DNA of 64,000 bases from Pelagibacterium limicola (GTDB lineage: Bacteria > Pseudomonadota > Alphaproteobacteria > Rhizobiales > Devosiaceae). Shown here in pieces: positions 20,736-50,139 of the stretch (position 1 is the stretch's first letter; each line of letters begins with the position of its first letter). The notes below the pieces were generated by a model. It did no database searches. It was given only the letters and a program-made list of their open reading frames with translations, and had not been told where the DNA came from. Location: assembly GCF_015694405.1 (NCBI RefSeq), contig NZ_JADQDB010000001.1, positions 1 through 64,000 on the forward strand, given 5' to 3'. Both the position numbers and the translations under genes were made by a program.

Positions 20736-20748
20736 GGCAAATCTTGCC
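20736..20748. promoter_or_regulatory. dyad GGCAA-N3-TTGCC upstream of flgB
   Basis: A perfect inverted repeat GGCAA-ATC-TTGCC, one of seven GGCA-N5-TGCC dyads found in flagellar intergenic regions of this window. The proposed binder is FlbD or another NtrC-type flagellar regulator. Confidence 0.45.
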
Positions 20749-20758
20749 TGTCTCATGG

Positions 20759-20773
20759 TTAACGAGGCGTTAA
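20759..20773. promoter_or_regulatory. CtrA-like box TTAA-N7-TTAA between flgB and fliO
   Basis: The sequence TTAACGAGGCGTTAA is an exact TTAA-N7-TTAA match to the CtrA recognition site known from Caulobacter and other Alphaproteobacteria. It lies 54 bases upstream of the preferred flgB start in the divergent flgB/fliO region. Confidence 0.6.
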
Positions 20774-20832
20774 TTTCATTTTCCCCATGTGCGGGAAAAC
20801 TTCATGTTTTGGCCTTTTCCTGCTCTATGCTA

Positions 20833-20845
20833 GGCAAACCTTGCC
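20833..20845. promoter_or_regulatory. dyad GGCAA-N3-TTGCC upstream of fliO
   Basis: A perfect inverted repeat GGCAA-ACC-TTGCC followed by CGG, 76 bases upstream of the fliO start. It belongs to the same motif set as the dyads near flgB, flgF, flgI and flgE. Confidence 0.45.
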
Positions 20846-20920
20846 CGGCGATTCAATTTCTCTGCTCAATGCAGCCGGGAGAAGCGGCTTTGGAATGTGT
20901 TCGTTTAAGGAGACGCGACA

Positions 20921-21529
20921 GTGGGATTTCTGACCAGCCTGTTCGGCGGCGAAACCAACTATGTCACGATGATCGTTGCGCTGGCCATCGTGCTAGCGCT
21001 GATCGTTTTGGCTGTATGGCTCATAAAGGTGATGGGACAGGCCACCCGGACGATCGGTCGCGGACGGCAAAGGCGCCTCTCGATCGTCGATAGCATCCCC
21101 ATTGACCAGAAACGCCAGGCCATCATTATCCGGCGCGACGGCGTCGAACACCTGATCGTCATCGGCGGCACCAACGATCTCGTCGTCGAAACCGGCTTCG
21201 AAGCCCCTGCCCTGACGACTCCAGTCCGGCCCGGACGCCGGATGATCCCTACAAGCGCATCCGAAGCCGAAACGCCGCCTGCCAACGTCTCTCGCCTCGA
21301 AAATACCTCCTCCACGAGCAAGCCCAAATCGCTGCGCCATACCGGCCTCTTGCGGGCCACTGACGGACAAGGCGGCGAACTTCCCGGTGGAAAGCGCGCG
21401 ACGGCGGGTGCTCCCGCAATCGACTCAGCTACAAACGGTATGAGCGACGATCGCGAACCTGCGCTCGAAACCGTAGCTGAATCGGGGGAAAACGATAACG
21501 CCGACAAGAACAAAGGAAGGCGAACCTGA
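20921..21529 (+). CDS. fliO: flagellar biosynthetic protein FliO
   Basis: Start is a GTG with AAGGAGA (20907-20913) in front. The 202-residue protein has one membrane helix (MIVALAIVLALIVLAVWLI) followed by the FliO domain RQRRLSIVDSIPIDQKRQAIIIRRDGVEHLIVIGG. A long, probably disordered C-terminal tail of about 100 residues is rich in Ser, Thr and Glu. FliO assists assembly of the FliP ring. It precedes fliP by 34 bases and is divergent from flgB. Confidence 0.85.
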   Translation: MGFLTSLFGGETNYVTMIVALAIVLALIVLAVWLIKVMGQATRTIGRGRQRRLSIVDSIPIDQKRQAIIIRRDGVEHLIVIGGTNDLVVETGFEAPALTTPVRPGRRMIPTSASEAETPPANVSRLENTSSTSKPKSLRHTGLLRATDGQGGELPGGKRATAGAPAIDSATNGMSDDREPALETVAESGENDNADKNKGRRT

Positions 21530-21563
21530 TCTTCTGCGCGGGCTTCCCAGCCGCGGGAGGCTT

Positions 21564-22292
21564 TTGCGCGCGGTAATTGCGGCGACCGTGCTAGTTGCGG
21601 CACTGGTTCCGGCGGCGGCCTTCGGTCAGGACATCAGCATCGATTTCGGTGACGATACGACCCTCACCGAGCGCGCCATCCAGTTGATTGCGCTCATCAC
21701 CGTCCTGGCCTTGGCGCCCTCGATTCTCGTGATGGTCACCAGTTTCACACGCATCGTCGTCGTGCTGTCGCTCCTGCGCACGGCGATCGGCCTGCAAACT
21801 GCGCCGCCCAACTCCGTCATGGTCTCGCTGGCGCTATTTCTCACCGCTTTCATCATGGCCCCGACGCTGCAGGCAAGCTACGACCAGGGAATAGCACCGC
21901 TCATTGCGGGAAATGTAGAGATTGCGGAAGGCGCCGAACTGGCAGCCGGCCCGTTCCACGAATTCATGCGGACACATGTCCGCGACCGCGATGTGATGCT
22001 GTTCCTCGATCTCACCGAAACACCGCCACCCGACACACCTGAAGAACTCGAACTGCGTATCCTCATCCCCGCTTTCATGATTTCGGAGTTGAGGCGCGCC
22101 TTCGAGATCGGCTTCCTGCTCTTCCTGCCCTTCGTCGTCATCGACATGGTGGTGGCATCGGTGCTTATGAGCATGGGCATGATGATGCTCCCGCCCGTCA
22201 TCATCTCGCTGCCCTTCAAGCTGATCTTCTTCGTGCTGGTCGACGGCTGGTACCTCGTCGTCGGGTCCCTGCTCCGAAGTTTTATGGGTTAG
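21564..22292 (+). CDS. fliP: flagellar export gate protein FliP
   Basis: The 242-residue protein has a cleavable-looking signal (MRAVIAATVLVAALVPAAAFG) and the FliP family blocks ILVMVTSFTRIVVVLSLLR, ALFLTAFIMAPT and LVDGWYLVVGSLLRSF. It forms the core of the export channel. The start is a TTG with GGGAGG close in front (three-base spacing, unusually short); a GTG at 21588 is an alternative but would shorten the signal peptide. It ends convergently against the large TPR gene, overlapping its stop by four bases. Confidence 0.93.
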   Translation: MRAVIAATVLVAALVPAAAFGQDISIDFGDDTTLTERAIQLIALITVLALAPSILVMVTSFTRIVVVLSLLRTAIGLQTAPPNSVMVSLALFLTAFIMAPTLQASYDQGIAPLIAGNVEIAEGAELAAGPFHEFMRTHVRDRDVMLFLDLTETPPPDTPEELELRILIPAFMISELRRAFEIGFLLFLPFVVIDMVVASVLMSMGMMMLPPVIISLPFKLIFFVLVDGWYLVVGSLLRSFMG

Positions 22293-25200
22293 CTGATCCC
22301 GTCCTGCCGGGTGGCCCGGAAGGGTGTTATGGCACCTTCCGAGGTATAGATTTCGCGATAGGCATTGAGGAAGGCGTTGAGGGAATCCACCGCTGCGATC
22401 TGTCGCGCAATTTGCCGGAATTCGCTGGCCGAGGTGTCGATCGCGTCCGTGACGAACGAGAACATAGGCCATTCCGGCGCCCGGGACATGAGGTCCGAAT
22501 ACCGGTTTCGGAGACGCGAGAGCCCAATCTGATCGTTGGCCATGAGGTAACCGACAGCCGCCTTGACGATATTGGTACGCGCGATCGGGCTGAGCGTGCC
22601 CTTGTCGAGATCCACGGCGTAAAGCCTCTCAATGGTTTCCGCCGCTTCGCGATAGCGTTTCGCGCGCCAATAGGCGTCTACGCGCAAAAGGTCGATGTCT
22701 CGCCCGGCCATGCCGGCCAGCATATCGAGCGCAAGATCGAACCGGCCCACATCAAGCAATGCTCGCGCCTCGAGAACACGTCGTTGGCGCTCGAGCGCTG
22801 GGGGCAGGCCCGAAAGACGCGTGCGGTATAGAGCTTCGAGCGCCTTGGCGGGCTCGCGATTGGCGATGTGTATGATTGCAAGATCGGCCGCCACCTGCGA
22901 ACGCGCAGCGCCTTGCAGACGATTGTTAACCTGGTAGTCGAGGAGTTCAGCTGCTTGATTGAGGAGGTCGACCCTGATCAGGCGATGCGCCAGGTTGCGG
23001 ATCATCTGGTCGCCCTGTGTCCCGGCAGGCGTCAACTGCCGGAAATCGTAGTAGATGCTCAAGGCCTCGATAGCGTCGAGTGCATCGGCTCGTCCATCGA
23101 TATAAAGCGCCTGGAATTCGACCTGGGCGCGTTCCATGAGGCGCGACAGGACATCCGAATTCCGGTGGCTGTCCGAAACCAGCCGGGTCGTCGAGAATGC
23201 GTCGCGGTAATTACCGTTGCGATACTGCAGGTCCGTGAGCTTTTCGATTATGGCAAGCTCGGTGGAATCACCGCGCCAGATGACTGACTGGACGGCCAAA
23301 GTGTCAGCGGCACGCGCCACATCGAGCCGACCCAGTTCATCGAGAAGCGAAATCGTGCGCAGAACCGCCTGGGATGTCGTGGGGCGGCGATCCGCGGCAA
23401 TGACCCGCCCATAGCTCTCCAACGCTTCGGGATACCGCCCGTTGAGTTCGTCGAGCATACCGCTCAATAAGTCGAACTCGGAAATCTGGTCCGGCCCCAT
23501 GGCTGAGAGATCGATCTGCTGTAGGAAGCGCGTTGCCAGCGCGATATCTTCCCGCTCCACCGCGGCCCTGATACCGGCGAGCAGATAGCGGCTCCGAATC
23601 CAGTTTGGCTGGTTGGAAGCGAGCAGTTCCGAACCAAGGGCCTCCATTCGGGCGCCTTCCCAATCCCCCAGCTGGGCGCGGGCGATGGTGCGCCAGAACC
23701 GAGCCTCCGAGCTCTCGGCGAGGGCCTCTGTTCCCAACAGCGAGACGGCCTCTCTGGCTCTCCCGGCCACCGCGTTCGCTGCACCTTCGACAATGCGGAT
23801 CGCCGATTCGAGGTCTGGCTGGCGCAAGCTTGCTCGCAAGGTCGAAAGTACGCCCAGAGATTCAAACGCGAGATTGTTCGCCAGATAGAATGTTGCCAGG
23901 TCGAGCCGGGCCCGGTCGAGATCGCGTCCTTCGGCGCTCAGCGTGCGCCCGACCAACTCTATCCGCCGTTGCTGCAAGTCGGCGGGGTTGGCGGCAATAT
24001 GGACGCCGAGATCGACCAGATTCTGGGCATCGATCCCCGACGCCGCGAGCCGTATCGGCTGCTCGGCGGAAAGCGTGAGTCCAGCCTCGGCCGCCACAAC
24101 CGCCCGGTTGCCTTCGACCCTTACCGACACACCGTCGTGGTTGGGCCGGAATACAAGCCCGTGCACGGTGCGTGGCGCTGAGAAATCGACATAATGGAGA
24201 TCCCGAACGATGCCGCGCGCAGGAGGAAACGCGGTAACGACCTCAAGCGTATCGCCCACGTTCGGATCGCGCAGCGTATGGACACGCCCGGGCTGCCCCA
24301 CGTCGGCGAAGACTTCAAATAGTCCACCTGCTCCCTGCCGCCGCTCGAGCATGATGGGCTGGGTGGCGCTGATGAGCACGTCACCGAGCGACAATACCCA
24401 CGCCCGGCCTTCCGAGCCCATTGTGGCCAATCGGTCTTGGCTGAGTTCCAGGCGGACGACCTTGGACCCCTCGAAACCTTCGACGGCAAAATCCGATACC
24501 AGGGCGTCCAACGAACCGCTGGAATACTCGTCCATGGGTGGGGCGATTTCGGCGGGCGTGTCGAAGACCAGCCATAGTGTGTCGCCGCGCCGGAACACCG
24601 CCGCTGGCGTTTCTCGGTGGAAGGGGAATACCACTCGCACGGTCGAACCCACCGTCGTCACAAAGGGCACGACAGTGTCGGGCTCTTCCCCGGAGGCGGC
24701 AATTGCACCGTCGGGGTCCGAGCTGTCGGAATGCGCAGCTTCTGCGGTGCCGCTACCCTCCACCCCTGCTGAAGCCCGAGCCAGCGCTTCAGGATCGATT
24801 GCTTCCACGAACACGCCCGCAAGATCGATATCGAGAATGAAGCGCGTGGCGCTATCCTCGTAAAAGCGCATCCGTGTGCCTTGCTCAACGTTCAGGGTAA
24901 CGGTGGTGCCGCCGAGACTGACCGTATTCTCCACCGCGAGCAACTGCTCGGGCATATCGGAGATGATTTCGTAGAGATCGATTCCCACGGGCCAGTCGAA
25001 GGTAATGCTGGCGCTGTCTTCCTCGCGGGCGTAGCTTGCACGCGTCCCCACATTCCAATTGAACATGATCCGCCAGAAGGTCGGATGGCGACCCACGCGG
25101 ACCACGGCGGCGGGATTATATTCGGCCGCCAGTTCGGCCCGACGGCGCTCTTCGGCCAATCTGGCTGCATCTTCAGCCCGCCGGGCGAGCCGCGCCACGG

Positions 25201-25642
25201 TTTCCGGCGGCAAGCTCGGGGGCAGCCCCACCCAGTTGGGCGGAAGCAGATCGATGAAAAGCTGCTCGCCGGCATCGATGGTATTGAGCTGCATGGGCCC
25301 GCGCAGGCCCATACGAATCCCGGTCATGTCCGGATCGAAGCGCGCAACCGAAATGACATCGTCCAGTGCACGCGCAATCTCCGGCAGAACACCCGCGAGG
25401 CGGACACCGAATTGGATGACCAGCACGCCGTTTTCGATGGAAACTTCGTGCTCTGGCAGGGACAGCCGGTCCTGGAAGGTAACGATGATGCGGCCGTAGT
25501 TCTCGTGCCGCTGCACCTCCACCGTGACGCGATCCTGAGCCGTGGCAGGGAAAGCCAGCGCAAGGCACGCAAAAAACGCCAGCGCGATTGCCCGCGCGGC
25601 GTTAATGAGATCGCTTCCCGCTCGTCTGGTGGTACAAAGCAT
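22289..25642 (-). CDS. large periplasmic TPR protein of the flagellar cluster (AMIN-like N-terminus)
   Basis: The 1117-residue product has a signal peptide (AIALAFFACLALAFPATAQ then DRVTVEV). A beta-rich N-terminal third contains GRIIVTFQDRLSLPEH, RIMFNWNVGTRASY and RFILDIDLAG, which resembles repeated AMIN-like modules. A Ser/Asp/Gly linker sits near residue 300. The C-terminal half (from about 600) is helical, Ala/Leu/Arg-rich and TPR-like (RYPEALESYGRVIAADRRPTTSQAVLRTI). I do not recognise a named family. It follows motE by 70 bases at the end of the fliL-fliM-motE operon, so a periplasmic role in motility is inferred. MotC, the known client of MotE, is not seen. Confidence 0.7.
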   Translation of the reverse strand: MLCTTRRAGSDLINAARAIALAFFACLALAFPATAQDRVTVEVQRHENYGRIIVTFQDRLSLPEHEVSIENGVLVIQFGVRLAGVLPEIARALDDVISVARFDPDMTGIRMGLRGPMQLNTIDAGEQLFIDLLPPNWVGLPPSLPPETVARLARRAEDAARLAEERRRAELAAEYNPAAVVRVGRHPTFWRIMFNWNVGTRASYAREEDSASITFDWPVGIDLYEIISDMPEQLLAVENTVSLGGTTVTLNVEQGTRMRFYEDSATRFILDIDLAGVFVEAIDPEALARASAGVEGSGTAEAAHSDSSDPDGAIAASGEEPDTVVPFVTTVGSTVRVVFPFHRETPAAVFRRGDTLWLVFDTPAEIAPPMDEYSSGSLDALVSDFAVEGFEGSKVVRLELSQDRLATMGSEGRAWVLSLGDVLISATQPIMLERRQGAGGLFEVFADVGQPGRVHTLRDPNVGDTLEVVTAFPPARGIVRDLHYVDFSAPRTVHGLVFRPNHDGVSVRVEGNRAVVAAEAGLTLSAEQPIRLAASGIDAQNLVDLGVHIAANPADLQQRRIELVGRTLSAEGRDLDRARLDLATFYLANNLAFESLGVLSTLRASLRQPDLESAIRIVEGAANAVAGRAREAVSLLGTEALAESSEARFWRTIARAQLGDWEGARMEALGSELLASNQPNWIRSRYLLAGIRAAVEREDIALATRFLQQIDLSAMGPDQISEFDLLSGMLDELNGRYPEALESYGRVIAADRRPTTSQAVLRTISLLDELGRLDVARAADTLAVQSVIWRGDSTELAIIEKLTDLQYRNGNYRDAFSTTRLVSDSHRNSDVLSRLMERAQVEFQALYIDGRADALDAIEALSIYYDFRQLTPAGTQGDQMIRNLAHRLIRVDLLNQAAELLDYQVNNRLQGAARSQVAADLAIIHIANREPAKALEALYRTRLSGLPPALERQRRVLEARALLDVGRFDLALDMLAGMAGRDIDLLRVDAYWRAKRYREAAETIERLYAVDLDKGTLSPIARTNIVKAAVGYLMANDQIGLSRLRNRYSDLMSRAPEWPMFSFVTDAIDTSASEFRQIARQIAAVDSLNAFLNAYREIYTSEGAITPFRATRQDGIS

Positions 25643-25712
25643 TCTGCCTGCCGCCGTTCAATTTTGGCAGCCTAGCGGCGAGCGTTTAAGATGCCCTTAC
25701 CTTGGCACGCTT

Positions 25713-26453
25713 TTACTGCCCTACAATTTGCGGCAAATGAGCAAAGCCACCCTGGGCCGCTTCGGGCTGCGCGCTTTCGCCTTCCGCCGCCATAAGCACG
25801 GTCAAACCCTGCGCTTTCGCGGGATGCATCTTGGCCATGATCGGACCGAGTTTACGCGGATTCATGCTTCGGCTCACCTGGAGCAGCACGCTCGTCTCGA
25901 GATCGTTGAAGATGGTTGCTGCATCGGAGGGGCGCATGGACTCGTACATGGCCACAAGGCCAGCGAACTGTCCGGCATTGCGGGCCTCCTGCTCATCCAT
26001 CGCCGCGTTTATGCGCGCCTCGAGGGCCATCAGTTCGGCCATCCGCTCTTCGAGCCTCAGTTCGGCGGCTTCGACAACAGCCAGTCGCATGTCGAGTTCC
26101 TCGGCGAGGGCATCGAGCTCGGCGCGCCGGGCCGCAAGCCTTTCAAGGATCAGCCGTTCTGTGTCATCCTCGACGAGCGCGACCGGTCTTCCTGCGCCTT
26201 GGGAATCGAACTGCAAGGTCGGAACTGCGTCACCCTCGGCTGGAGCCGGTGTATTTTCAAACAGCGCGCGTGCCGCCACATCGGCAGCGGCAAGATTGGC
26301 TTCGTCCGAGGCCGGCGTCCCATGTTCGCTCGCTGTGACACCTGAAATTCCAGTGAGGATATACCCTTCGCCAAACACGAGACCGCTCACCTTGAGAACC
26401 AGGAGAGCCGACGCGGCCAGTATCACGATGGGCAACAGCCTCATGGTTTTCAC
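25713..26453 (-). CDS. motE: MotE-like flagellar motor chaperone (MgtE-N fold)
   Basis: The 246-residue protein has an N-terminal membrane segment (LPIVILAASALLVLKVSGLV), a long Ala/Glu/Arg coiled coil (ERLAARRAELDALAEELDMR and LRLEERMAELMALEARI), and the C-terminal MgtE-N-like block YESMRPSDAATIFNDLETSVLLQVSRSMNPRKLGPIMAKM. This is the architecture of rhizobial MotE, a periplasmic chaperone for the motor protein MotC. Its start overlaps the stop of the DUF6468 gene by four bases (ATGA), so the two are translationally coupled. Confidence 0.8.
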   Translation of the reverse strand: MKTMRLLPIVILAASALLVLKVSGLVFGEGYILTGISGVTASEHGTPASDEANLAAADVAARALFENTPAPAEGDAVPTLQFDSQGAGRPVALVEDDTERLILERLAARRAELDALAEELDMRLAVVEAAELRLEERMAELMALEARINAAMDEQEARNAGQFAGLVAMYESMRPSDAATIFNDLETSVLLQVSRSMNPRKLGPIMAKMHPAKAQGLTVLMAAEGESAQPEAAQGGFAHLPQIVGQ

Positions 26454-26869
26454 GCCGCGCTGCTCCGGCGCCGCTGGTGCTCGGTCAGGGCCTTGAGCGC
26501 AGTCGACGCTTTTGCCGCCTGGTCCCCGCCCTGCTGGCTGCGGGCGGCCTGCGTAATCCGTGTGATCCGGTCCATTACCGCTTGTCCCGCATTGACGTGG
26601 TTAGCCAATTCGATGGCGAAACGCTCGGCCTCGTTGAGACGCTGATTGAGTGTTTCGTCAGCCTCCACCGCGGTTTCTTTCAGCCCCCTGATCGCCGCAT
26701 TGGCCATGGTTGTGGCCTGGACAAGATCGGCGGTCATCTGCTGAAGCGCCAGGCGGTCGGCTTGCAGGCTCGCGATCCTGCGGTTGAGCAGGATGCAGTA
26801 GCCAATGGTGGTCGCGAGCAGCACGGCAACGGTACCCTCGATTATCAGCCCTAACGAAAGTCCCGTCAT
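26450..26869 (-). CDS. DUF6468 flagellar protein
   Basis: The ATG at 26869 overlaps the fliM stop (ATGA), which decides the start against a longer frame reaching 27010. The 139-residue protein has one N-terminal membrane helix (LSLGLIIEGTVAVLLATTIGYCILLNRRI) followed by a helical, Ala/Gln-rich cytoplasmic region with coiled-coil character. It matches the DUF6468 proteins that lie between fliM and motE in many Hyphomicrobiales; their function is unknown. Confidence 0.75.
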   Translation of the reverse strand: MTGLSLGLIIEGTVAVLLATTIGYCILLNRRIASLQADRLALQQMTADLVQATTMANAAIRGLKETAVEADETLNQRLNEAERFAIELANHVNAGQAVMDRITRITQAARSQQGGDQAAKASTALKALTEHQRRRSSAA

Positions 26870-27957
26870 GACTTGCCCTCCGCTTGTTCGTCCATCGCCT
26901 CGAAAGCCGCCATCGTGACCTTTGGCGGATAAAGTGGGCGTATCACCCTCACAGAAACATTGTTGCCGATGTGCCCCATGACTGCCTTGGTCAGATCGAC
27001 CGTTCCGCATCGTAGCGTGACAGGATCGGCGGGCGTCATGTCGAATGTGATTGTGTCCCCCGGCGAGAGGCTCAGGATGCGCGAGAGCGGCAGCTCCATC
27101 TCATGTAGAACGGCAGAAATCTCCGTGTCCGCAGCATGGATTTCCGTCGCGAGATGTCCTTCCCATATTGGATCGCGTCCGAACTTCTCACCCATATACA
27201 TCTGGAGCAATTGCTCACGGATGGGCTCGATCGTGGCATAGGGCAGCATGATTTCGATCTTGCCGCCACGGTCGTCCATGTCGATACGCAACTCGACAAG
27301 GATGGCCGCATTCCCGGGCCGCGAGATCGCTGCAAATCGGGGATTGGTTTCCATCCGGTCAAGCTTGAAGGTCACTTGCGTCAAGGGCTCGAACGCCTTG
27401 CGCATGTCTTCCAGCACATGCTCTATCATGCGCCGCGCCAAGGCCAGTTCGATAGTCGTATAGGGACGCCCCTCGATACGGATTACGCTCGACCCTCTTC
27501 GACCGCCCAAGAGCACATCGATCATCGAATAAATAAGGCTGGAATCGACCGTCAGAAGGCCGAAATTGTCCCACTCTTCAGCCTTGATCACCGAAAGAAT
27601 GGCCGGCAGCGGGATAGAATTGAGATAGTCCCCGAACCGCACCGAGGAGATGGAATCCAAGGATACTTCCACATTGTCGGAGGTGAAATTTCTGAGCGTG
27701 GTCGTCGCCAATCGCACCAGGCGGTCGAAAGCGATCTCGAGCATCGGCAGGCGCTCGTAGCTGACCAGCGCCGAATTGATGAGCGCGCGGACCCCTGTGA
27801 GCTCGACGTTGGCGCCCACGCTGGCATCAAAGCCCAGAAGTGAATCGATCTCGTCCTGGTTGAGTACGCGATCGACACCCTCCACGCCCTGCTCTGCCTC
27901 GAGCATGGCCGCCCAATCGTCGCTCAATCCGCCAAGGCTTTGTTCGGGGTCCGCCAT
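26866..27957 (-). CDS. fliM: flagellar motor switch protein FliM
   Basis: The 363-residue protein contains the CheY-P-binding motif VLNQDEIDSLLGF, the middle domain with YSMIDVLLGGRRG, and the C-terminal SpoA domain ending in VRVIRPLYPPKVTMAAF. FliM forms the C-ring and reverses or modulates rotation on CheY-P binding. The CheY-binding motif is at residues 31-43 rather than at the very N-terminus as in enteric FliM, so about 30 acidic residues precede it. It follows fliL by two bases. Confidence 0.95.
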   Translation of the reverse strand: MADPEQSLGGLSDDWAAMLEAEQGVEGVDRVLNQDEIDSLLGFDASVGANVELTGVRALINSALVSYERLPMLEIAFDRLVRLATTTLRNFTSDNVEVSLDSISSVRFGDYLNSIPLPAILSVIKAEEWDNFGLLTVDSSLIYSMIDVLLGGRRGSSVIRIEGRPYTTIELALARRMIEHVLEDMRKAFEPLTQVTFKLDRMETNPRFAAISRPGNAAILVELRIDMDDRGGKIEIMLPYATIEPIREQLLQMYMGEKFGRDPIWEGHLATEIHAADTEISAVLHEMELPLSRILSLSPGDTITFDMTPADPVTLRCGTVDLTKAVMGHIGNNVSVRVIRPLYPPKVTMAAFEAMDEQAEGKS

Positions 27958-27959
27958 AC

Positions 27960-28457: not shown

Positions 28458-28520
28458 GGATTGGTTCCGAATCCTCCAAAGGCCCGGATTTCCCGGCCAA
28501 TCCAGCTAATCCCCGCAAGG

Positions 28521-28535
28521 TTAATGAATGGTTAC
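28521..28535. promoter_or_regulatory. degenerate CtrA-like site upstream of fliL
   Basis: TTAA-TGAATGG-TTAC fits TTAA-N7-TTAA with one mismatch and lies 64 bases upstream of the fliL start. Weak on its own, but fliLM is CtrA-dependent in Caulobacter. Confidence 0.3.
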
Positions 28536-28550
28536 CAACCGGGCCCGCGC

Positions 28551-28577
28551 GGCAGAAATTACCCGGCAAGTTTTGCC
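28551..28577. promoter_or_regulatory. tandem GGCA-N5-TGCC dyads between fliL and flgF
   Basis: A perfect dyad GGCAA-GTT-TTGCC (28565-28577) is preceded by a one-mismatch copy GGCAG-AAA-TTACC (28551-28563). They stand about 80-100 bases upstream of the flgF sigma-54-like promoter, a typical enhancer distance. Confidence 0.5.
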
Positions 28578-28653
28578 TCACTGTTAAGGATAACCTACTG
28601 TAAACGACTTCTTTGCGTAAAATAATATGTTGTTTTAATTAATGTTTTCAGTT

Positions 28654-28669
28654 TGGCACGGCGCGTGCA
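28654..28669 (+). promoter_or_regulatory. sigma-54-like promoter of flgF operon
   Basis: TGGCACG-GCGC-GTGCA matches the -24/-12 consensus TGGCACG-N4-TTGCA except for one base, with the invariant GG and GC at the right distance. It overlaps the upstream alternative flgF start (28670), which supports the start at 28733. Confidence 0.65.
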
Positions 28670-28732
28670 ATGCCCTTTGCGGACGATCCGCTTGGGGAAG
28701 TGGGTCTCCGGTTAAAACGGGGAAACGCGCTA

Positions 28733-29476: not shown

Positions 29477-29487
29477 GGAAACAAGCG

Positions 29488-30273: not shown

Positions 30274-30296
30274 CGATTGAAAGGAGGGTTTGAGTG

Positions 30297-39136: not shown

Positions 39137-39556
39137 TCACAGAGGGGGATATCTGCCGAGCTTGGCCAGTTCCACCCGAACGCGCAATTCAATGTCGGCA
39201 ACAAGAGCCTCAAGCTCGGGCTCGATCGCGCCCTTGGCTTGTCCCAGAAGCGCGACAGCACGGTTCAAACGCCCCTCGTTAACTCGCCCTCCCAGAAGAT
39301 CGGCGCGAATTTCCTCCAGCGCATCGAGCAGAAGGTTGGCACGTTTGACCGCCTTGCGCCTGCCTGTCGTCGCATCGTCCACGGCCTGCAGGGCCAAAAG
39401 TGCATCTATCCCGGTGGAAGCTGCGGTCATCGAGGTCTGTTGAGCGCGCGCTTGCGTGGCTGGCGCTTCGGGTCTGAAGGCCTCCCCGCTCCGGCTCGCA
39501 TGGCCGGTACCCCGGCCCACGCCGGGTATGATCCGCCCAGTACCGTCGATGCGCAT
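39137..39556 (-). CDS. fliX: flagellar assembly regulator FliX
   Basis: The 139-residue protein has a disordered N-terminal half and a conserved helical C-terminal half (TGIDALLALQAVDD, AVKRANLLLDALEEIRADLLGG, LVADIELRVRVELAKLGRY) that I recognise as FliX. In Caulobacter FliX binds the sigma-54 activator FlbD and couples flagellar transcription to assembly, and it is divergent from flgI exactly as here. A perfect CtrA-like box lies 61 bases upstream. Confidence 0.85.
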   Translation of the reverse strand: MRIDGTGRIIPGVGRGTGHASRSGEAFRPEAPATQARAQQTSMTAASTGIDALLALQAVDDATTGRRKAVKRANLLLDALEEIRADLLGGRVNEGRLNRAVALLGQAKGAIEPELEALVADIELRVRVELAKLGRYPPL

Positions 39557-39595
39557 ATATCCGTTCCGCCCGACATGGTTAATCGTTTTCTAACC

Positions 39596-39608
39596 GGCAG
39601 ATTTTGCC
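39596..39608. promoter_or_regulatory. GGCA-N5-TGCC dyad, fliX/flgI region (site 1)
   Basis: GGCAG-ATT-TTGCC between fliX and flgI, part of the recurrent flagellar dyad set; about 120 bases upstream of the flgI sigma-54-like promoter. Confidence 0.4.
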
Positions 39609-39616
39609 CATGCCCG

Positions 39617-39632
39617 TTAATTTTACCTTAAC
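39617..39632. promoter_or_regulatory. CtrA-like box TTAA-N7-TTAAC upstream of fliX
   Basis: TTAATTTTACCTTAAC is an exact match to TTAA-N7-TTAAC, 61 bases upstream of fliX and between two GGCA-N5-TGCC dyads. A second near match, TTAA-N7-CTAA, is at 39579-39593. Confidence 0.65.
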
Positions 39633-39637: not shown

Positions 39638-39650
39638 GGCAATCCCTGCC
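39638..39650. promoter_or_regulatory. GGCA-N5-TGCC dyad, fliX/flgI region (site 2)
   Basis: CCGGCAATCCCTGCCGG is a dyad with six-base arms around GGCA-N5-TGCC, about 80 bases upstream of the flgI sigma-54-like promoter. Confidence 0.5.
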
Positions 39651-39727: not shown

Positions 39728-39743
39728 TGGCACGCTTTTCGCT
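39728..39743 (+). promoter_or_regulatory. sigma-54-like promoter of flgI operon
   Basis: TGGCACG-CTTT-TCGCT matches TGGCACG-N4-TTGCT with one mismatch and correct GG/GC spacing. It lies 70 bases before the flgI start. Confidence 0.65.
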
Positions 39744-41733: not shown

Positions 41734-41754
41734 CGCGGGCCCGACTGTCTCATT

Positions 41755-41769
41755 TTAAGACAATTTTAT
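41755..41769. promoter_or_regulatory. degenerate CtrA-like site downstream of the flgI operon
   Basis: TTAA-GACAATT-TTAT matches TTAA-N7-TTAA with one mismatch, in the gap before the small protein at 41853. Weak evidence. Confidence 0.25.
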
Positions 41770-41800
41770 CGACCGTTATAACGATAGCCCAACCCTTGCC

Positions 41801-41827
41801 GGCATAAACTGCCCGGTAGCTTTTGCC
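41801..41827. promoter_or_regulatory. tandem GGCA-N5-TGCC dyads before the flagellin region
   Basis: GGCAT-AAA-CTGCC (41801-41813) is followed after one base by GGTAG-CTT-TTGCC (41815-41827, one mismatch). They share the phase and pattern of the dyads before flgF. No matching sigma-54 promoter was found downstream. Confidence 0.4.
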
Positions 41828-41852
41828 GGCCAGGTAAGGAACTTCGTTAACG

Positions 41853-42203
41853 GTGGTTGGACAAATTACCCTGATGCAAGGCCCGCTCGGTGTCGCGTCC
41901 AGCGCACGCCGCGCGCAATCGCGTCCGGAGTCGGAAGCCATCGAGTCGGCATCGGAGTCGCGAGGGGCCAGTCTTGGCCAGACCCCGCCACGCTCGCCTG
42001 CCCCGCACCGGGATGGCGATAAAAAATTGCAGCCAGCTCAGGCTGTTAGCGCTTCCGTTTCGTCCCGAACGCTTTTCGAAGCCAGCCGGCTCGCATCTCT
42101 GCTACCGCAGGAAAAGGTGTCAACCGGCCCGGCTGCCAGAAATACGCGGAACGACTGGCAGCCTCCCTATTCTCCCTTCCATCTGCGCGACCGCTCTATC
42201 TGA
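41853..42203 (+). CDS. small low-complexity protein upstream of flagellin, unknown
   Basis: A GTG-started frame of 116 residues lies between the flgI operon and the flagellin gene; AAGGAA stands some 12 bases before it and an ATG at 41874 is an alternative start. The product is rich in Ser, Arg, Ala and Pro with no membrane helix; only LFEASRLASLLPQEK looks ordered. It belongs to no family I know. Its position after flagellar dyads suggests a flagellar accessory or secreted protein, but it may not be a real gene. Confidence 0.45.
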   Translation: MVGQITLMQGPLGVASSARRAQSRPESEAIESASESRGASLGQTPPRSPAPHRDGDKKLQPAQAVSASVSSRTLFEASRLASLLPQEKVSTGPAARNTRNDWQPPYSPFHLRDRSI

Positions 42204-42277
42204 ACGAAATCATTAATTTCGTGTCCCCAAGATAGATTCTGTTAACCATTCGGTAGCACCTCGTGAGTCACTTTTGG

Positions 42278-42292
42278 TTAACGGCTCGTTAG
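42278..42292. promoter_or_regulatory. degenerate CtrA-like site upstream of flagellin
   Basis: TTAA-CGGCTCG-TTAG matches TTAA-N7-TTAA with one mismatch, 33 bases upstream of the flagellin start. No sigma-54 promoter was found in this gap. Confidence 0.3.
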
Positions 42293-42324
42293 CGGGCTGA
42301 TTCTGCAAAATTGTCAGCGAGACG

Positions 42325-44211: not shown

Positions 44212-44239
44212 ATCGTCCGCCGCCGGGGGAAAGCGAAAA

Positions 44240-44668
44240 ATGGCACTCAAGGTCGAGCTCAAGCCTGGCGAAAAGCTGCTCCTGGGCACCTGCGTCGTCA
44301 CCAACGGAGACCAGCGCACCAAGCTGTTCATCGAGGGCAAGGCGCCGATCCTTCGCGAGAAGGATATCCTCACGCCCGACACCGCCGACACTCCGGCCAA
44401 GGCCATCTATCTGGCCATTCAGATCATGTATGTCGAAGGCTCTGTCGAAAAGCTCCAGAAGAGCTACTTCGAGATGGTCAACGATGTCGTCCGTGCCGCA
44501 CCCTCGACGCTTCCCCTTATTGATCAGATAAACAATGAAATCTTAACCGGCGATTTATACAAAGCCCTTAGGGTTGCAAAAAAGCTAATCGAATATGAGG
44601 GGGAACTTCTCTCAAATGCAGCAGCACGGAGCACAGGCGTATCAACAGACGGCCCAGAAGACGGTTAA
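44240..44668 (+). CDS. flbT: flagellin-mRNA regulator FlbT
   Basis: The ATG at 44240 gives 142 residues beginning MALKVELKPGEKLLLGTCVV, the standard FlbT start. Other family blocks are ILREKDILTPDTADTPAKAIYLAIQIMY and LIDQINNEILTGDLYKALRVAKKLIEYEGELL in the second half. FlbT binds flagellin mRNA leaders and controls their translation or decay. It lies 28 bases behind the flagellin gene and overlaps flaF. Confidence 0.92.
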   Translation: MALKVELKPGEKLLLGTCVVTNGDQRTKLFIEGKAPILREKDILTPDTADTPAKAIYLAIQIMYVEGSVEKLQKSYFEMVNDVVRAAPSTLPLIDQINNEILTGDLYKALRVAKKLIEYEGELLSNAAARSTGVSTDGPEDG

Positions 44669-44981
44669 TCCGCGCGATCTGGAAGCCAATCTCCTTGCCA
44701 AAAGTGCCGTCCAGCTCCAACGCATTCGCGACAATTGGGAAGACCAATCGGGGGACCTCGATAAGGCTCTGACCTATAACCGCAAGCTCTGGAGCATTTT
44801 CCTGCAGACCGTTACGCGGGAGGAAAATCCCCTTCCCCAGCCCATCAAGCAGAACATCGCCAATCTCGGCCTTTTCGTGATGAAGCACACGGTCGCCGTT
44901 CTGGCCCGCCCCGAGCCCGAAAAACTCGACACGCTGATCCTGATCAACAAGGAAATTGCGGCCGGCCTGCGGTCCAAATAG
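44616..44981 (+). CDS. flaF: flagellin assembly/biosynthesis protein FlaF
   Basis: The 121-residue protein has the FlaF core NPRDLEANLLAKSAVQLQRI and LTYNRKLWSIFLQTVTREENPLPQPIKQNIANLGLFVMKHT (spread over residues 20-95). FlaF promotes flagellin synthesis and works with FlbT. The ATG at 44616, with GGGGGA ten bases upstream, is preferred to the ATG at 44595. Either way the gene begins inside the flbT 3' end, indicating translational coupling. Confidence 0.88.
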   Translation: MQQHGAQAYQQTAQKTVNPRDLEANLLAKSAVQLQRIRDNWEDQSGDLDKALTYNRKLWSIFLQTVTREENPLPQPIKQNIANLGLFVMKHTVAVLARPEPEKLDTLILINKEIAAGLRSK

Positions 44982-44984
44982 ACC

Positions 44985-45007
44985 GAGCGAACGGCGGACG
45001 TTCGTTC
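44985..45007. terminator. hairpin between convergent flaF and flgL
   Basis: GAGCGAACG (44985-44993) and CGTTCGTTC (44999-45007) can form a nine-pair stem with one G-T pair and a five-base loop, just after the flaF stop. No T run follows, so termination there is uncertain. Confidence 0.35.
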
Positions 45008-45027
45008 CGAGCGGTCCGGTTCTGCTA

Positions 45028-46491
45028 TTACCTCAGGTAATTCACGAGCGTAAGCTGGCTCACCATCGAGGTGACCTGATAGCTGGCTTCGAGGCGTGTG
45101 CGCAGCGTCAGCATCTGCATCGCAACCTCTTCAACGGGCGCCGTCTCGATAGCCGAAAGCATCGTCTTGAGTTCGGCATCGTACTGGGAATGCCGCGCCT
45201 TGACCGTATTGAGCGTGTTGGCCGCAAGGCCGAGTTCCATGGTGATGACCTGAATCGAACCCGGCTGCGCGTTGTTGACATTAGCTAAGCGCGCACGCTG
45301 GAGTCCGACCAGCCCATCGTAAATCCCAGCATTGGTTTCATCGATCGGCGTGAGCTGGCTGACAGCGAACACTGCGAGCCCTTTCATCAGCTCGACAATG
45401 CCGTTTTCGTTGGCCTGGACGCCATAGCTTACCTTCGTCGATTCATCGATGTCGGCGGAAACGGTCTGTCGCGGGTTGCCGTTGGCCCCGACATCCTGAC
45501 CGTTATACCACTGCATCGCTTGGGGGTGCTGGGACTCCCCGCGCTTTGTGAAGAACTGGTCGGCAGCGGCATAGGTGGAAGCTGCAGTCAATTTTGTGCT
45601 GGTCAGCTTGTCCAGCCTGTTGCCGAGCGCAGCAGAAAAATTCGTTGCCGTCGCATTTTCATCAGCGCCAATAAGGAACGTTCCTGCCGGCGGAGGGACT
45701 TCCGTCGTCGCCTTTAGCGTGATCGTCTCATGGCGGTTGCGATCGTCGGGATAGCTGACGATCAAGGTGACTTCCTGCCCCGCAACCGGCTGTGAGCCGA
45801 ACTGCACATCGACTCGTTGTGCACCATCCGGGTCCAGCGGATCCATAGGGTCAAGTGTGACGGTAATCCCCGGATTTGTCGACGAGCCGCCCACGAGCTT
45901 GAAACCGTAATCGTGGTCGCCGTCTTCCACGAGCGAAACCGTGTCGCCAGCGACAATCCGGTCCAGCCTGCCAGTGTTGGCGAGATCCTCGCCATGCCGC
46001 GCCTGCACAAAGGGCACGAAACCGTTCGGCCCGTGCATGATCTGGTCGAAGCTCGCCACCGGCTTGCGGTCCGAGGCGTTCCCACCGAAAATGTACTGCC
46101 CCATGATATCGGTGTTGAGCGTATCGATCACTTCCTTGAGCAGCGTCGAAGCCTGGCTCTGGGCGTTAGCGAGGTTGATCCCGTTCGTACCATAGGCACC
46201 GGGCACTGCGAGCCCGCGCGCACTGCCCGCAATCTCGTCGAGGCGCTGCATGGACTTGGTATAGAAAGAAAGTCGGGTCTCGACCGTCTGGATGTTGGCC
46301 TGGAAGCCGGCAATTCGTCCCAGCCGCGCCCGAATATTGAGGTCGTGAACGCGGTCCGAACCGATTTCGGCCAGCGTATTGTGACGCTTGCCGGTCGCAA
46401 GTTGCATCTGGAGGCTCTCCATCTGCTTTTGCATATTGTTGATCGTCTTGATCGTCGTCGAAACCGGGTAAAGCGCTTTGTTCACAATCAT
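45028..46491 (-). CDS. flgL: hook-filament junction protein FlgL
   Basis: The 487-residue flagellin-fold protein has TTIKTINNMQKQMESLQMQLATGKRHNTLAEIG at the N-terminus and, at the C-terminus, APVEEVAMQMLTLRTRLEASYQVTSMVSQLTLVNYL within the last 40 residues, the FlgL pattern. The centre is a variable domain. FlgL joins the hook to the filament. It lies 13 bases after flgK and ends convergently with flaF. Confidence 0.88.
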   Translation of the reverse strand: MIVNKALYPVSTTIKTINNMQKQMESLQMQLATGKRHNTLAEIGSDRVHDLNIRARLGRIAGFQANIQTVETRLSFYTKSMQRLDEIAGSARGLAVPGAYGTNGINLANAQSQASTLLKEVIDTLNTDIMGQYIFGGNASDRKPVASFDQIMHGPNGFVPFVQARHGEDLANTGRLDRIVAGDTVSLVEDGDHDYGFKLVGGSSTNPGITVTLDPMDPLDPDGAQRVDVQFGSQPVAGQEVTLIVSYPDDRNRHETITLKATTEVPPPAGTFLIGADENATATNFSAALGNRLDKLTSTKLTAASTYAAADQFFTKRGESQHPQAMQWYNGQDVGANGNPRQTVSADIDESTKVSYGVQANENGIVELMKGLAVFAVSQLTPIDETNAGIYDGLVGLQRARLANVNNAQPGSIQVITMELGLAANTLNTVKARHSQYDAELKTMLSAIETAPVEEVAMQMLTLRTRLEASYQVTSMVSQLTLVNYLR

Positions 46492-46504
46492 GCCAGTTGG
46501 CCTC

Positions 46505-48349
46505 TTACATCCGCATCAGGGCGTCGATCAGTTCCTGGACGACCGAAACCACTCTGGCGCTTGCTGAATAGGTATTTTGCAGCTGCATCAGCCGTGCCAT
46601 TTCCTCGTCAACGTTGACGCCATACTCCGCCGACATCCGTTGAGTCAGCGTATCGAGCGTAAACTGGACGGCAGCGTACTGGCTCTCTGCTCTGGCCACC
46701 ACATTGCCCTGATGGTTGATCATCTGGCCGATCATTTCGCCGACCTTACCGGACAGACGTACGCCGCCATCGGAAATGGACGTCATTTTTTCAGAGGTGA
46801 ACTGCATCGACTTGAGGCTGTCGAGCAGGAAGCGAGGCCGTGTAGGATCGCCGAGTGACACATCCACATCATATTGGACGAGCAGGTTGGGGTTACTGAC
46901 AAGCGCGGAATTGACCTGGATCCGGCTCGCAAAACCGATCTTCTGGTCGGTCCCATCAAGGCTGTTGCTGAAGGGCACTCCATAGGCGTCTACGAACAGG
47001 TTCAGCGCAGCGTTGCCGCTTTGATTGCCCGACGCTGTAACAAAGGATGTCATGGCCGCTATTGAGGAGTTGGTTCCCCCGTCGTCCATCATGCGCAGGA
47101 CGCCACCACCCTCGTCGGTGAAGGTCACGTCAGGGCCCAGCGCAGTGTTGAGCGCGGTCGCGGCCGCCCCCAGATCACTGAGATCCACGCCAATGACCCG
47201 CTCACCCCGGGCGTTGGGCGAAGGCGGCACGGTTCCGTCTTCAGTATGGATTAGCCGCACAGTGTGCGTTCCACTGGAGTCGGTATAGTTCAGGAGCACC
47301 GAGTTACCGGGGCGGATATTGTTGAGATCGAGCTCAAAACCCGCCGGATCGCCAGGATTTGTGGCCGGCACACTCGTACCCGCCGTCGTCACGGTATTGA
47401 GCGCCAAGGCCAATCCGGCGGCGATTTCGTCGAGCTGATCCTGCATGTTGACCAGCGTCGTATCGCGCAACTCCATCAGCCCGGCGATCTTGCCGGAAGA
47501 AAGGAGCCGTTGCGCGCCCAGATCGATTTCAAGGCCCGATGGCGTGCGAAGTTTGAGCGCCCCCACGCTGCTCTGCGCCGGATCGGTGCTGAACTGCGAC
47601 GTGGCCGATAGCGCGCCTCCAGTCGAAAAGGTGAATTCGGACGGCATCACGTCGAGAATGCCCACGCCCGATTCGGTCATGAGCGAAACCGTGCCATCAG
47701 ACCTGTAGCTCACGCGGACGTCGATGTTCTCGGCGACCATCGCCACCAGCCGGTCGCGCTCATCCATCAGTGAGAGCCGTGCCGCCTGGTCCTGGGACAG
47801 ATCAAGGATACGGATGTTGACGTCGGCAAGCGCCTTGAGGTTGCGGTTGAGATCGGAAACCGCGTTCGTGATCTGGGATTCGGTCTCGCGCCGCATCTCC
47901 TGCACGGCGCCGCTCAGGAGGTTGAGCTGCTCTACCAGGTGCTGCGCGGTGTTGAGCACGCCGGCCCGTGTCGTTACGTCGTTGGGATTGGTCGCCAGAG
48001 CCTGAAGCGCGTTTTCGAACCCGGTATAAAGCGTATCGAGGGAGTTCGCGCTTCCCGGTTTGCCGATATGCATCTGCAAACGGTCTAGAAACGATGCGCG
48101 CGCCGAATGAAATCCCGTGTTTGAAACCGCAACGAGGTGCTGCTTTTCCAGCGCCTCGTTGAAGGCGCGAGTGAGTTCCGCCGTGCGTACCTGTGCGCTG
48201 GTGCCATACGCCGTTTCGGTGATGACAAGGGACTGTCTGTGGTAACCAGGCGTACCCTGGTTGGCCACATTGCGTGAAAGTACATCGATCCCGCGCTGGC
48301 TTGCATTCATGCCGCCAAGAGCGTTTGAAAGTGTCGAACTTAGTCCCAC
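46505..48349 (-). CDS. flgK: flagellar hook-associated protein FlgK
   Basis: The 614-residue protein begins MGLSSTLSNALGGMNASQRG with IDVLSRNVANQGTPGYHRQ, the rod/hook signature, and has FLDRLQMHIGKPGSANSLDTLYTGFENALQALATNP in its first 110 residues. It ends EMARLMQLQNTYSASARVVSVVQELIDALM. It is the first hook-filament junction protein. It lies 34 bases after flgE and before flgL. Confidence 0.93.
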   Translation of the reverse strand: MGLSSTLSNALGGMNASQRGIDVLSRNVANQGTPGYHRQSLVITETAYGTSAQVRTAELTRAFNEALEKQHLVAVSNTGFHSARASFLDRLQMHIGKPGSANSLDTLYTGFENALQALATNPNDVTTRAGVLNTAQHLVEQLNLLSGAVQEMRRETESQITNAVSDLNRNLKALADVNIRILDLSQDQAARLSLMDERDRLVAMVAENIDVRVSYRSDGTVSLMTESGVGILDVMPSEFTFSTGGALSATSQFSTDPAQSSVGALKLRTPSGLEIDLGAQRLLSSGKIAGLMELRDTTLVNMQDQLDEIAAGLALALNTVTTAGTSVPATNPGDPAGFELDLNNIRPGNSVLLNYTDSSGTHTVRLIHTEDGTVPPSPNARGERVIGVDLSDLGAAATALNTALGPDVTFTDEGGGVLRMMDDGGTNSSIAAMTSFVTASGNQSGNAALNLFVDAYGVPFSNSLDGTDQKIGFASRIQVNSALVSNPNLLVQYDVDVSLGDPTRPRFLLDSLKSMQFTSEKMTSISDGGVRLSGKVGEMIGQMINHQGNVVARAESQYAAVQFTLDTLTQRMSAEYGVNVDEEMARLMQLQNTYSASARVVSVVQELIDALMRM

Positions 48350-48383
48350 GTCCGTCTCTCCAGTTTAAGACGTTCTGTCGCAA

Positions 48384-49973
48384 CTAGCGGATCATATTCA
48401 GGGCTTCCTGCAGCATCTTGTCGGACGTTGACACGATGCGAGTGCCGGCAGCGTAAGCCTGCTGGGTTACGATCAGCTTAGTAAACTCGTCCGAAATGTC
48501 AGTATTAGAGGATTCCAGAGCACCGCCGGAAATCCCGCCGTCGATCGAAAGGATTGCCTCGCCCGATTGCGCGGTCGCCGCATAGACGCCGCCATCCATG
48601 CGCTTGAGCATGTTCTGTGCATTAAAATTGGCGGTAATGATCTGGTAGAGCTCGATCTGCTCGCCGTTCGAATAGGTGGCCACCACGCGTCCTGCGTCGT
48701 TGATGGCGACCGACATGAATGAGCCCGCGGCATAACCGTTCTGGCTGAGCTGGGTTACCGAGGCGCGACCGTTGGCGTTGCTGAACTGGGTGATCCCGCC
48801 TATGCCGAAATCCAGCATCACATTCCCGACCGTAGTACCGTTCACGGTCAGGTTCGGGAGGTTGAGTTGCACGACATCGCCAGCAGCAACAGGGTTGCCG
48901 CCCAATGTAGCAAGCGCGCCGGCAGCGTTGAACCCGAACTCGCCTCCTGGGACCGTCACCCACTGCTGGGGGTTGCTCTGAGACATGTAATAGAGCTGCC
49001 AGGTGTTCGGATTTTCCGACAGCATACCCCAGCGCATCTGAACGTTCACCGACGCGCCATTGGGGGTATAGACGGTAATCGCCCCGCCCTCTACAGTCTG
49101 ATTGAGAAACTCGGGCACGCCTTGGGTCGTGACACCTGGAAGCTGACCTGAACCTGCAATGGTCAGGCCCGTTTGCACGTCGTTGGCGACGATCTGGATA
49201 TTGCCGCCAGCAAGCGAGGCCGTCGCGTTGATATTGGCATTACCGTTGATCCAGTCGATGAGCTCCTGCACGGTCGTGCCGTCGACACCCTCGGTAAATG
49301 TCTGCACTCCTTGTCCGGTATTGATCGTAAAGGTCTCACCTGCAGAAAAATCCGTGAAAGCGGTCAGCAAATCGCCGCCGGCGATGCCGCCCGTATTGGT
49401 TCCTGTCTGCGCCGGCGCATAGAGCAGCCCGACGGCCGGCACGGCCGGGAGGTTCAATTGGTACTGGACCCGGGTTGTCGAACGCGCAGGGATAAGCCCG
49501 TTGCCGATCTTGATCATTTCGGGGACCGAGCCCGCAACGTTCCCTGTCTCGGCATCGATCGGCACGCCGCGCAGATAATAACCGGCGCCATTCATGAGAT
49601 ACCCCTCGCGGTCCATCTCGAAGTCGCCGCGCCGCGTATAGAAGTTGGCATCGCCAAACACTGCCTGCCCATCCGTCGTTCCGGTTTTCTGCGAAACGAT
49701 GAAGAAGCCCGAGCCGTTGAGCGCGATATGTGTTCCCGTGGGCGAGGTGATGATATCGCCACGCACATCGTTGGTTGAGCGTGAGTAGGCCAGAACCGCG
49801 CCCGGCACCTGCCGCCCAACTGCCGCATCAGGAATGAGGTCGATAAACCCGGTTTCCATCCGCTTGTAGCCCGTGGTCTGGGAGTTGGCGATGTTGCCCG
49901 AGATGTTCTCGAGCGCAAATGCCTGGGCTCGCATCCCCGTCACGGCCGTCGCCAAAGCACCATAAATACCCAT
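48384..49973 (-). CDS. flgE: flagellar hook protein FlgE
   Basis: The ATG at 49973 has GGAG six bases upstream and gives the normal N-terminus MGIYGALATAVTGMRAQAFA, then LENISGNIANSQTTGYKR. The longer frame to 50120 would run through the sigma-54-like promoter. The 529-residue product has the FlgE middle domains and ends SNTDISDEFTKLIVTQQAYAAGTRIVSTSDKMLQEALNMIR over its last 41 residues. It makes the hook. It opens the flgE-flgK-flgL operon. Confidence 0.92.
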   Translation of the reverse strand: MGIYGALATAVTGMRAQAFALENISGNIANSQTTGYKRMETGFIDLIPDAAVGRQVPGAVLAYSRSTNDVRGDIITSPTGTHIALNGSGFFIVSQKTGTTDGQAVFGDANFYTRRGDFEMDREGYLMNGAGYYLRGVPIDAETGNVAGSVPEMIKIGNGLIPARSTTRVQYQLNLPAVPAVGLLYAPAQTGTNTGGIAGGDLLTAFTDFSAGETFTINTGQGVQTFTEGVDGTTVQELIDWINGNANINATASLAGGNIQIVANDVQTGLTIAGSGQLPGVTTQGVPEFLNQTVEGGAITVYTPNGASVNVQMRWGMLSENPNTWQLYYMSQSNPQQWVTVPGGEFGFNAAGALATLGGNPVAAGDVVQLNLPNLTVNGTTVGNVMLDFGIGGITQFSNANGRASVTQLSQNGYAAGSFMSVAINDAGRVVATYSNGEQIELYQIITANFNAQNMLKRMDGGVYAATAQSGEAILSIDGGISGGALESSNTDISDEFTKLIVTQQAYAAGTRIVSTSDKMLQEALNMIR

Positions 49974-50023
49974 TTTACTCTCCGTATTGCCGGCGCCAGT
50001 GCGCACATATTCACAAAACACGA

Positions 50024-50039
50024 AGCAAGCCGGATGCCA
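50024..50039 (-). promoter_or_regulatory. sigma-54-like promoter of flgE operon
   Basis: On the minus strand TGGCATC-CGGC-TTGCT fits TGGCACG-N4-TTGCT with two mismatches outside the invariant GG and GC. It lies 51 bases upstream of the flgE start, with a GGCA-N5-TGCC dyad about 90 bases further upstream. Confidence 0.6.
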
Positions 50040-50126
50040 GACTCTCAACTGATTGAATTTCCTAGACTTTAGAACGGACATGCCGTCCATCAGCATGCCC
50101 AGCCCGGAATCTTTCTCCACTATCCC

Positions 50127-50139
50127 GGCAATTTCTGCC
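50127..50139. promoter_or_regulatory. GGCA-N5-TGCC dyad upstream of flgE
   Basis: CCCGGCAATTTCTGCCCGG carries the recurrent flagellar dyad, at enhancer-like distance from the flgE sigma-54-like promoter. Confidence 0.5.

Follow-up and report, generated by a model that had tools for sequence, protein, structure and literature searches.

The window analysed here, a 64-kb stretch of the Pelagibacterium limicola genome, carries several flagellar operons, and the element in question is a short interrupted palindrome, GGCA-N5-TGCC (hereafter the dyad), which recurs in the intergenic regions before them and is considered as a candidate binding site of the flagellar regulator FlbD. Protein models place flgB, flgC, fliE, fliQ, fliR and flhB opposite fliO-fliP; fliX opposite flgI, a rod-binding gene and a weak FlgN-like gene; a flagellin gene and flaF; and flgE, flgK and a flagellin-N gene taken as flgL. 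The starts of fliX and of a small gene at 41853 have been placed by homology rather than by the gene caller. An earlier note on this DNA had listed seven exact dyads and two copies with one mismatch, and all of them are found where it had put them (Table 1). The exact copies in the window number 11, against the seven of that note; the four further ones (18918, 34895, 51053 and 62815) all lie within called coding sequence.

The dyads are concentrated before flagellar genes, as had been proposed. Seven fall in five intergenic regions of the window (1,102 bp), and the remaining 6,504 bp of called intergenic DNA contain none. On a separate contig (C9), the 20-kb surroundings of flbD hold three dyads, each before a flagellar operon. 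Taken together, the seven dyad-bearing flagellar regions (1,554 bp) hold 10 dyads against 0.085 expected at the genome mean; GGCA-N5-TGCC occurs in all seven of them, and the runner-up of the 4,096 possible dyads in two. Five of these regions had been picked by the earlier note for the motif itself. The fliK and fliF regions came with the flbD stretch, and for these two, not chosen for the motif, P is about 2.5e-6.

The background frequency of the motif is higher than the one per 65 kb or so assumed in the earlier note. Dinucleotide shuffles of the window contained 2.1 dyads on average and at most 8 in 100 shuffles, the observed 11 never being reached, and the genome of 3,472,577 bp holds 191 exact dyads (about 3.5 per 64 kb) against 87 copies of the reversed control pattern. 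With one mismatch allowed, the window count is 61 against 44, a mild excess only. A composite pattern, in which the dyad is followed after 68-98 bp by the core TGGCA-N8-GC, has six matches in the 3.47-Mb genome and none for its reversed control: four correspond to flgF, flgI, flgE and fliK; of the other two, one extends from the 20736 dyad into the coding sequence of flgB and the other is on contig C7. Among 31 genomes of the family, 30 have composite matches, 140 in total against 8 for the control (tandem pairs counting twice, and matches being counted anywhere in the genome).

The genes of the corresponding regulators, flbD, rpoN and fliX, are all present. The FlbD orthologue, a protein of 456 residues encoded at C9:29911, scores 826.9 bits against NF050807 (cut-off 750), and rpoN is recognized by PF04552 (4.6e-67). 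FliX matches PF10768 above the Pfam cut-off (2.1e-34), the best NCBIfam FliX model giving 94.1 bits, under its cut-off of 153. On C9, flbD is located downstream of fliF (26202) and fliG (27842) and adjoins flhA (31278). The FlbD protein carries the GAFTGA motif, and its receiver domain, read by eye from the unaligned N-terminus, lacks the two acidic residues and the lysine that a functional receiver would have. The genome encodes nine near-full-length sigma-54 activator domains, with three weak partial matches in addition. Of the six enhancer-binding proteins scored with NF050807 only FlbD passes, the best of the other five reaching 332.5 bits; three further enhancer-binding proteins stand outside this scoring.

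Among 199 sampled genomes of the order Hyphomicrobiales, FliX was found in 117 and FlbD in 115 (105 above the cut-off and 10 lower or partial rows accepted by a score gap); 112 genomes have both, five FliX only, three FlbD only, and 79 neither. The FlbD-FliX pair is thus not unusual in the order, contrary to what had been supposed. The nearest FliX loci, among the best 80 of 532, belong to Pelagibacterium (P. sediminicola, 79% identical) and then to Devosia; the cut loci L065 and L072 were excluded from the FliX alignment, and L056, L063, L064, L067 and L068 also stand outside it.

The link to FlbD holds across genomes. The fliF genes of the order form two score classes, an FlbD-type (113 rows, E value 1.5e-121 or better) and a second type (37 listed rows, 9e-77 to 8e-62, seven of them in genomes that also have FlbD-type fliF). 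Within the 500 bases ending just inside fliF, 47 of 70 FlbD-type genes have an exact dyad, which is the commonest of the 4,096 in that set (shuffles gave 0.98, at most 3), as have 2 of 37 genes of the other type (shuffles 0.88). The 70 upstream regions represent 30 returned loci and 40 picked by hand down the list of 113. In P. limicola the sole fliF match is the FlbD-type query itself, and no second-type fliF was found.

The region between fliX and flgI offers a further comparison. An exact dyad is present there in 73 of 80 named loci of the order (the best 80 of 532 confirmed loci) and in 23 of 30 order loci (P. limicola included, two of the misses being cut at contig ends). Among other members of the class Alphaproteobacteria it occurs in 18 of 29 loci of a first set, several of which are cut at contig ends, and in 26 of 40 hand-picked loci of a second set. 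The dyad ranks first of 4,096 in both the 80 and the 40, and TTAA-N7-TTAA, the CtrA-like box, comes second in the former and third in the latter. Of the 80 named loci, 58 contain a CtrA-like box with at most one mismatch, and in 44 such a box stands 19-23 bp after a dyad; a second dyad follows 40-46 bp on in 16, and the full dyad-box-dyad array is present in 14. The named loci gave no usable regions upstream of flgE.

The dyad-bearing regions of P. limicola differ in their promoter elements. A sigma-54-like -24/-12 element agreeing with at least 10 of 12 consensus positions was found at three places in the window (flgF, flgI and flgE) and on C9 at fliK, and none of that quality at flgB/fliO, at fliF or in the 41801 region. 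CtrA-like boxes with at most one mismatch occur in five of the seven regions, and none at flgE and fliK. Three groups can therefore be distinguished: (i) CtrA-like box and dyad, at flgB/fliO, fliF and the small gene; (ii) CtrA-like box, dyad and sigma-54-like promoter, at fliL/flgF and fliX/flgI, both divergent; (iii) dyad and sigma-54-like promoter, at flgE and fliK. These groups fit the class II/class III split of Caulobacter. The tandem pairs and the sigma-54-like promoters downstream of the dyads, both claimed in the earlier note, are recovered at the distances given in Table 1, and the fliK dyad on C9 lies 104 bp from its sigma-54-like promoter. The 20736 dyad falls inside the longest flgB open reading frame (start 20756); it is probably located upstream of flgB, because the gene caller starts this gene at 20705 and FlgB homology begins only at residue 24-28. 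A conserved bend made by integration host factor in the fliX-flgI regions found no support, since strict-consensus sites occur in 7 of the 80 named loci, in 5 of the 40 class loci and in none of the five window regions.

The distances from dyad to flgI promoter are not evenly spread. In the named loci they cluster near 61, 72, 83, 95, 104, 116, 127, 136, 148 and 158 bp and, counted once per genus and distance, give R 0.60 at a period of 10.5 bp (n=60). For the first class set R is 0.62 (p about 1.6e-4, n=23), and for the second, fetched after the idea had been formed, 0.71 (p about 2e-7, n=30). In this second set the phasing persists with family-unique distances (R 0.70, p about 3e-6, n=26) and with one distance per family (R 0.71, p about 3e-4, n=16), these Rayleigh p values ignoring the remaining relatedness. 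Two controls, measured from the fliX start to the promoter and to the dyad, show no phasing (p 0.59 and 0.71), and best-fit periods lie between 10.5 and 10.85 bp. In the second class set, the flgF set and the pooled set, only distances of 40-170 bp were used; the first phasing set, of the named loci and the first class set, left out the second promoter matches of L206 and L242, the far dyad of L226, and L289, a duplicate of L288, and used labels of our own for loci without a genus name in the record. A literature search, which did not cover the older FlbD papers, found no report on how FlbD sites are spaced or phased. Other sigma-54 systems are known to show enhancer phasing.

Table 1. Dyads, promoter elements and associated genes in the window and on contig C9 (distances run from the dyad centre to the first base of the -24 element)
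Feature	Position	Strand	Remarks
Dyad, exact	20736..20748		flgB side of flgB/fliO divergent region
CtrA-like box TTAA-N7-TTAA, exact	20759..20773		between the flgB/fliO dyads
Dyad, exact	20833..20845		before fliO-fliP
CtrA-like box, one mismatch	28521..28535		
Dyad, one mismatch	28551..28563		14-bp offset from 28565 dyad
Dyad, exact	28565..28577		fliL-fliM / flgF-flgG-flgA-flgH divergent region
Sigma-54-like -24/-12 promoter of flgF	28654..28669	+	11/12 consensus positions; 83 bp from dyad centre
fliX (PF10768)	39137..39556	-	partner of FlbD
CtrA-like box, one mismatch	39579..39593		second box of fliX/flgI region
Dyad, exact	39596..39608		40 bp before fliX; 126 bp from flgI promoter
CtrA-like box, exact	39617..39631		between the two fliX/flgI dyads
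Dyad, exact	39638..39650		84 bp from flgI promoter
Sigma-54-like promoter of flgI	39728..39743	+	11/12
CtrA-like box, one mismatch	41755..41769		
Dyad, exact	41801..41813		paired with 41815, before small gene 41853
Dyad, one mismatch	41815..41827		14-bp offset from 41801 dyad
Small gene, 116 aa, GTG start	41853..42203	+	directly behind the 41801/41815 pair, between flgN-like gene and flagellin
Sigma-54-like promoter of flgE	50024..50039	-	10/12; 94 bp from dyad centre
Dyad, exact	50127..50139		before flgE-flgK-flgL
Dyad, exact	C9:22455		before fliK-flgD
Dyads, exact	C9:26070 and C9:26133		before fliF-fliG...flbD-flhA

Judged from sequence, the dyads are very probably binding sites of FlbD. This protein would activate sigma-54-dependent promoters (class III) and probably repress CtrA-type ones (class II). 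The FlbD-type reading put forward in the earlier note is thereby supported: flbD, fliX and rpoN are encoded in the genome, and the dyad tracks the FlbD-type flagellum. FlbD would act as a sigma-54 enhancer-binding protein whose activity is set by FliX, and would bind the dyads through its C-terminal helix-turn-helix. At the predicted class III promoters (flgF, flgI, flgE and fliK) it would reach RNA polymerase-sigma-54, bound to the -24/-12 element, through a loop of 60-150 bp, and looping would work best with dyad and promoter on the same face of the helix. The putative class II, CtrA-type side would comprise fliF-flbD, fliX, flgB, fliO and perhaps fliL and the small gene at 41853, the dyads lying near a CtrA-like box. 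No sigma-54 site was found on this side, and FlbD most likely represses there, its own operon and its partner fliX included. The fliX/flgI region could then be regarded as one switch, in which the early gene is shut and the late gene opened once FliX reports an assembled base.

A more general rule is suggested by the phasing and is considered moderately likely. Across the Alphaproteobacteria, the FlbD dyad and the flgI promoter would be separated by about 50 to about 160 bp, mainly in whole-turn steps on one helical face, and the dyad-CtrA box-dyad array with about two turns per step, which the 14 named loci with the full array, Pelagibacterium included, possess, would serve as a joint off-switch for fliX and on-switch for flgI. 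Whole-turn spacing steps would imply that evolution adds and removes DNA in turns.

Several observations weigh against these readings. Seven of the nine flagellar upstream regions examined have a dyad; the upstream gaps of the flagellin gene (42325) and flaF contain no exact one, and no dyad was found at locus L297, a MotA/ExbB-family match tentatively taken as motA. Exact dyads are missing before 23 of the 70 FlbD-type fliF genes, with 2 of the 47 matches lying past the match start, and from 11 of 29 and 14 of 40 class fliX-flgI regions. The most likely action of FlbD at class II promoters, repression, is drawn solely from the layout and from Caulobacter. The flgI phase at 10.5 bp is 358 degrees in the named Hyphomicrobiales and 273 degrees in the other class members, about 2.5 bp apart, and pooling all 144 flgI distances consequently lowers R to 0.46 at 10.5 bp (0.59 at 10.85). 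Phasing at flgF is weak (R 0.24 at 10.5 bp, n=72): the dyads of the named relatives are paired there, either with a 14-bp offset (97/83 bp) or at about 91-95/60-65 bp, and the 14-bp offset puts one member of the 97/83 pair out of phase. Finally, the outcome that the earlier note had held to be damaging, many dyads in coding sequence or at unrelated promoters, was found in part. On contigs C1 and C3 outside the window all 34 sites were read, 27 of them coding and seven intergenic and non-flagellar, and the 191 genomic copies (of which 50 places were listed) are mostly coding where checked. The motif alone is therefore non-specific and defines no regulon; the strong concentration before flagellar operons remains, and position there does discriminate.

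Other explanations of the dyads have been weighed. Accumulation of a short palindrome by chance or base composition could draw on the 191 genomic copies against 87 of the reversed control, yet the 10 dyads in 1,554 bp, with rank 1 of 4,096, and the presence of a dyad at the corresponding position in 73 of 80 named loci (the best of 532) leave it next to no probability, and the conservation of the dyad across genomes refutes it. It is scarcely more credible that the dyads are degenerate sigma-54 promoters or RNA hairpins. GGCA...TGC is partly like TGGCAC-N5-TTGC, but the spacing from GG to GC is two bases off and separate -24/-12 elements stand 60-150 bp away; a hairpin is contradicted by variable spacer letters, stems of only 4 bp and a position in upstream DNA.

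Binding by another regulator that accompanies this flagellar type, be it a different enhancer-binding protein or a cell-cycle factor, is improbable, if less so than the two preceding explanations. The other sigma-54 activator domains of the genome would provide candidates, five of the seven regions have CtrA-like boxes close to their dyads, and the dyad is also found at non-flagellar intergenic places. Against this, the dyad goes with FlbD-type fliF, and its frequency before the second fliF type of the order is close to that in shuffles; it lies at enhancer distance from sigma-54 promoters, with a helical phase at flgI; and FlbD, alone among the six scored activators in passing the FlbD model, is encoded in a flagellar operon. 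NtrC sites differ from the dyad. The assignment of the dyads to FlbD is accordingly preferred.

The small gene behind the 41801/41815 pair is conserved in loci L186-L189, where its product retains 35-47% identity and a C-terminal LRDR motif. In the comparison with L186 the mismatches by codon position are 36/34/66, of 117 each. No Pfam match was obtained at an E value of 1, and a broad search of 121 genomes of the order found the protein solely in P. limicola. The 14-bp-offset dyad pair before the gene is exact in L186, L187 and L189, and L188 has one exact member. A flagellin (42325) promoter driven by this pair was rejected, because the conserved small gene starts 25 bp after the pair and because, between the pair and the flagellin gene, no sigma-54-like site with a score of at least 9 was found in the window or in three of the four relatives, L188 having one of 9. 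The flagellin gene itself has a CtrA-like box at 42278-42292, about 33 bp before its start, and no sigma-54-like site of at least 9 in its gap.

Further observations concern the surroundings of these regions. The seven non-flagellar intergenic dyads (C3:158573, 256383, 335549, 356023, 384454 and 547852; C1:81873) may be extra FlbD sites or chance occurrences. Both fliF types are found in genomes G035, G119, G143, G149, G175, G180 and G196, in which the dyad could serve to assign promoters to one or the other of the two flagella of a cell. In the window, a protein of about 1,100 residues with weak tetratricopeptide repeat matches only is encoded at 22289-25642 on the minus strand, between fliP and the FlbB-collar-like and DUF6468 genes. 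The FlbB-collar-like gene (25713-26453, minus strand) matches the periplasmic flagellar collar protein FlbB weakly (NF047368, 5.7e-8, 32.8 bits, cut-off 110) and lies just downstream of the DUF6468 gene and fliM.

A dyad combined with a -24/-12 core at a set distance defines FlbD class III targets in a compact and testable way, which could be applied to Alphaproteobacteria not studied so far, and promoter DNA tells the two fliF types of the order apart. With the phasing and the layouts of CtrA-like boxes and dyads, the question of how a single protein can both activate and repress in a Caulobacter-type hierarchy becomes one of spacing experiments. The FlbD-FliX system itself is of a known kind; the flgI phasing and the CtrA-dyad layouts may be new details.

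In Caulobacter flbD is encoded in the fliF operon and ftr sites lie near -100. The dyads presumably resemble these ftr sites. Through its ftr sites, Caulobacter FlbD acts as an activator of later genes and as a repressor of fliF (PMC3096577, PMC3930126), and its receiver is divergent, without phosphorylation residues (PMC3096577). P. limicola is like Caulobacter crescentus in having FlbD with GAFTGA and a divergent receiver in the fliF operon, together with FliX and RpoN, and in placing its sites before sigma-54 middle genes (rod, ring and hook, about 100 bp upstream) and before the early fliF. It belongs to another order, however. Its flagellin gene is preceded by a CtrA-like box, with no exact dyad nearby, and its flagellin gap shows no sigma-54-like site of at least 9, in contrast to the flagellins of Caulobacter, which depend on RpoN; the 14-bp-offset tandem pairs are a further difference.

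Within the order itself, the second fliF type, which we take to be the VisNR/Rem type, belongs to flagella that form a separate fliF score class, with the dyad before only 2 of the 37 listed. FlbD-FliX are reportedly class II regulators in Bradyrhizobium diazoefficiens, to judge from the title of Dardis et al. 2021, so that the presence of this system in Hyphomicrobiales is not new. The same regulator pair thus occurs in the same order, and the Bradyrhizobium loci L262 and L265 carry a dyad and a sigma-54-like site at fliX-flgI, as P. limicola does.

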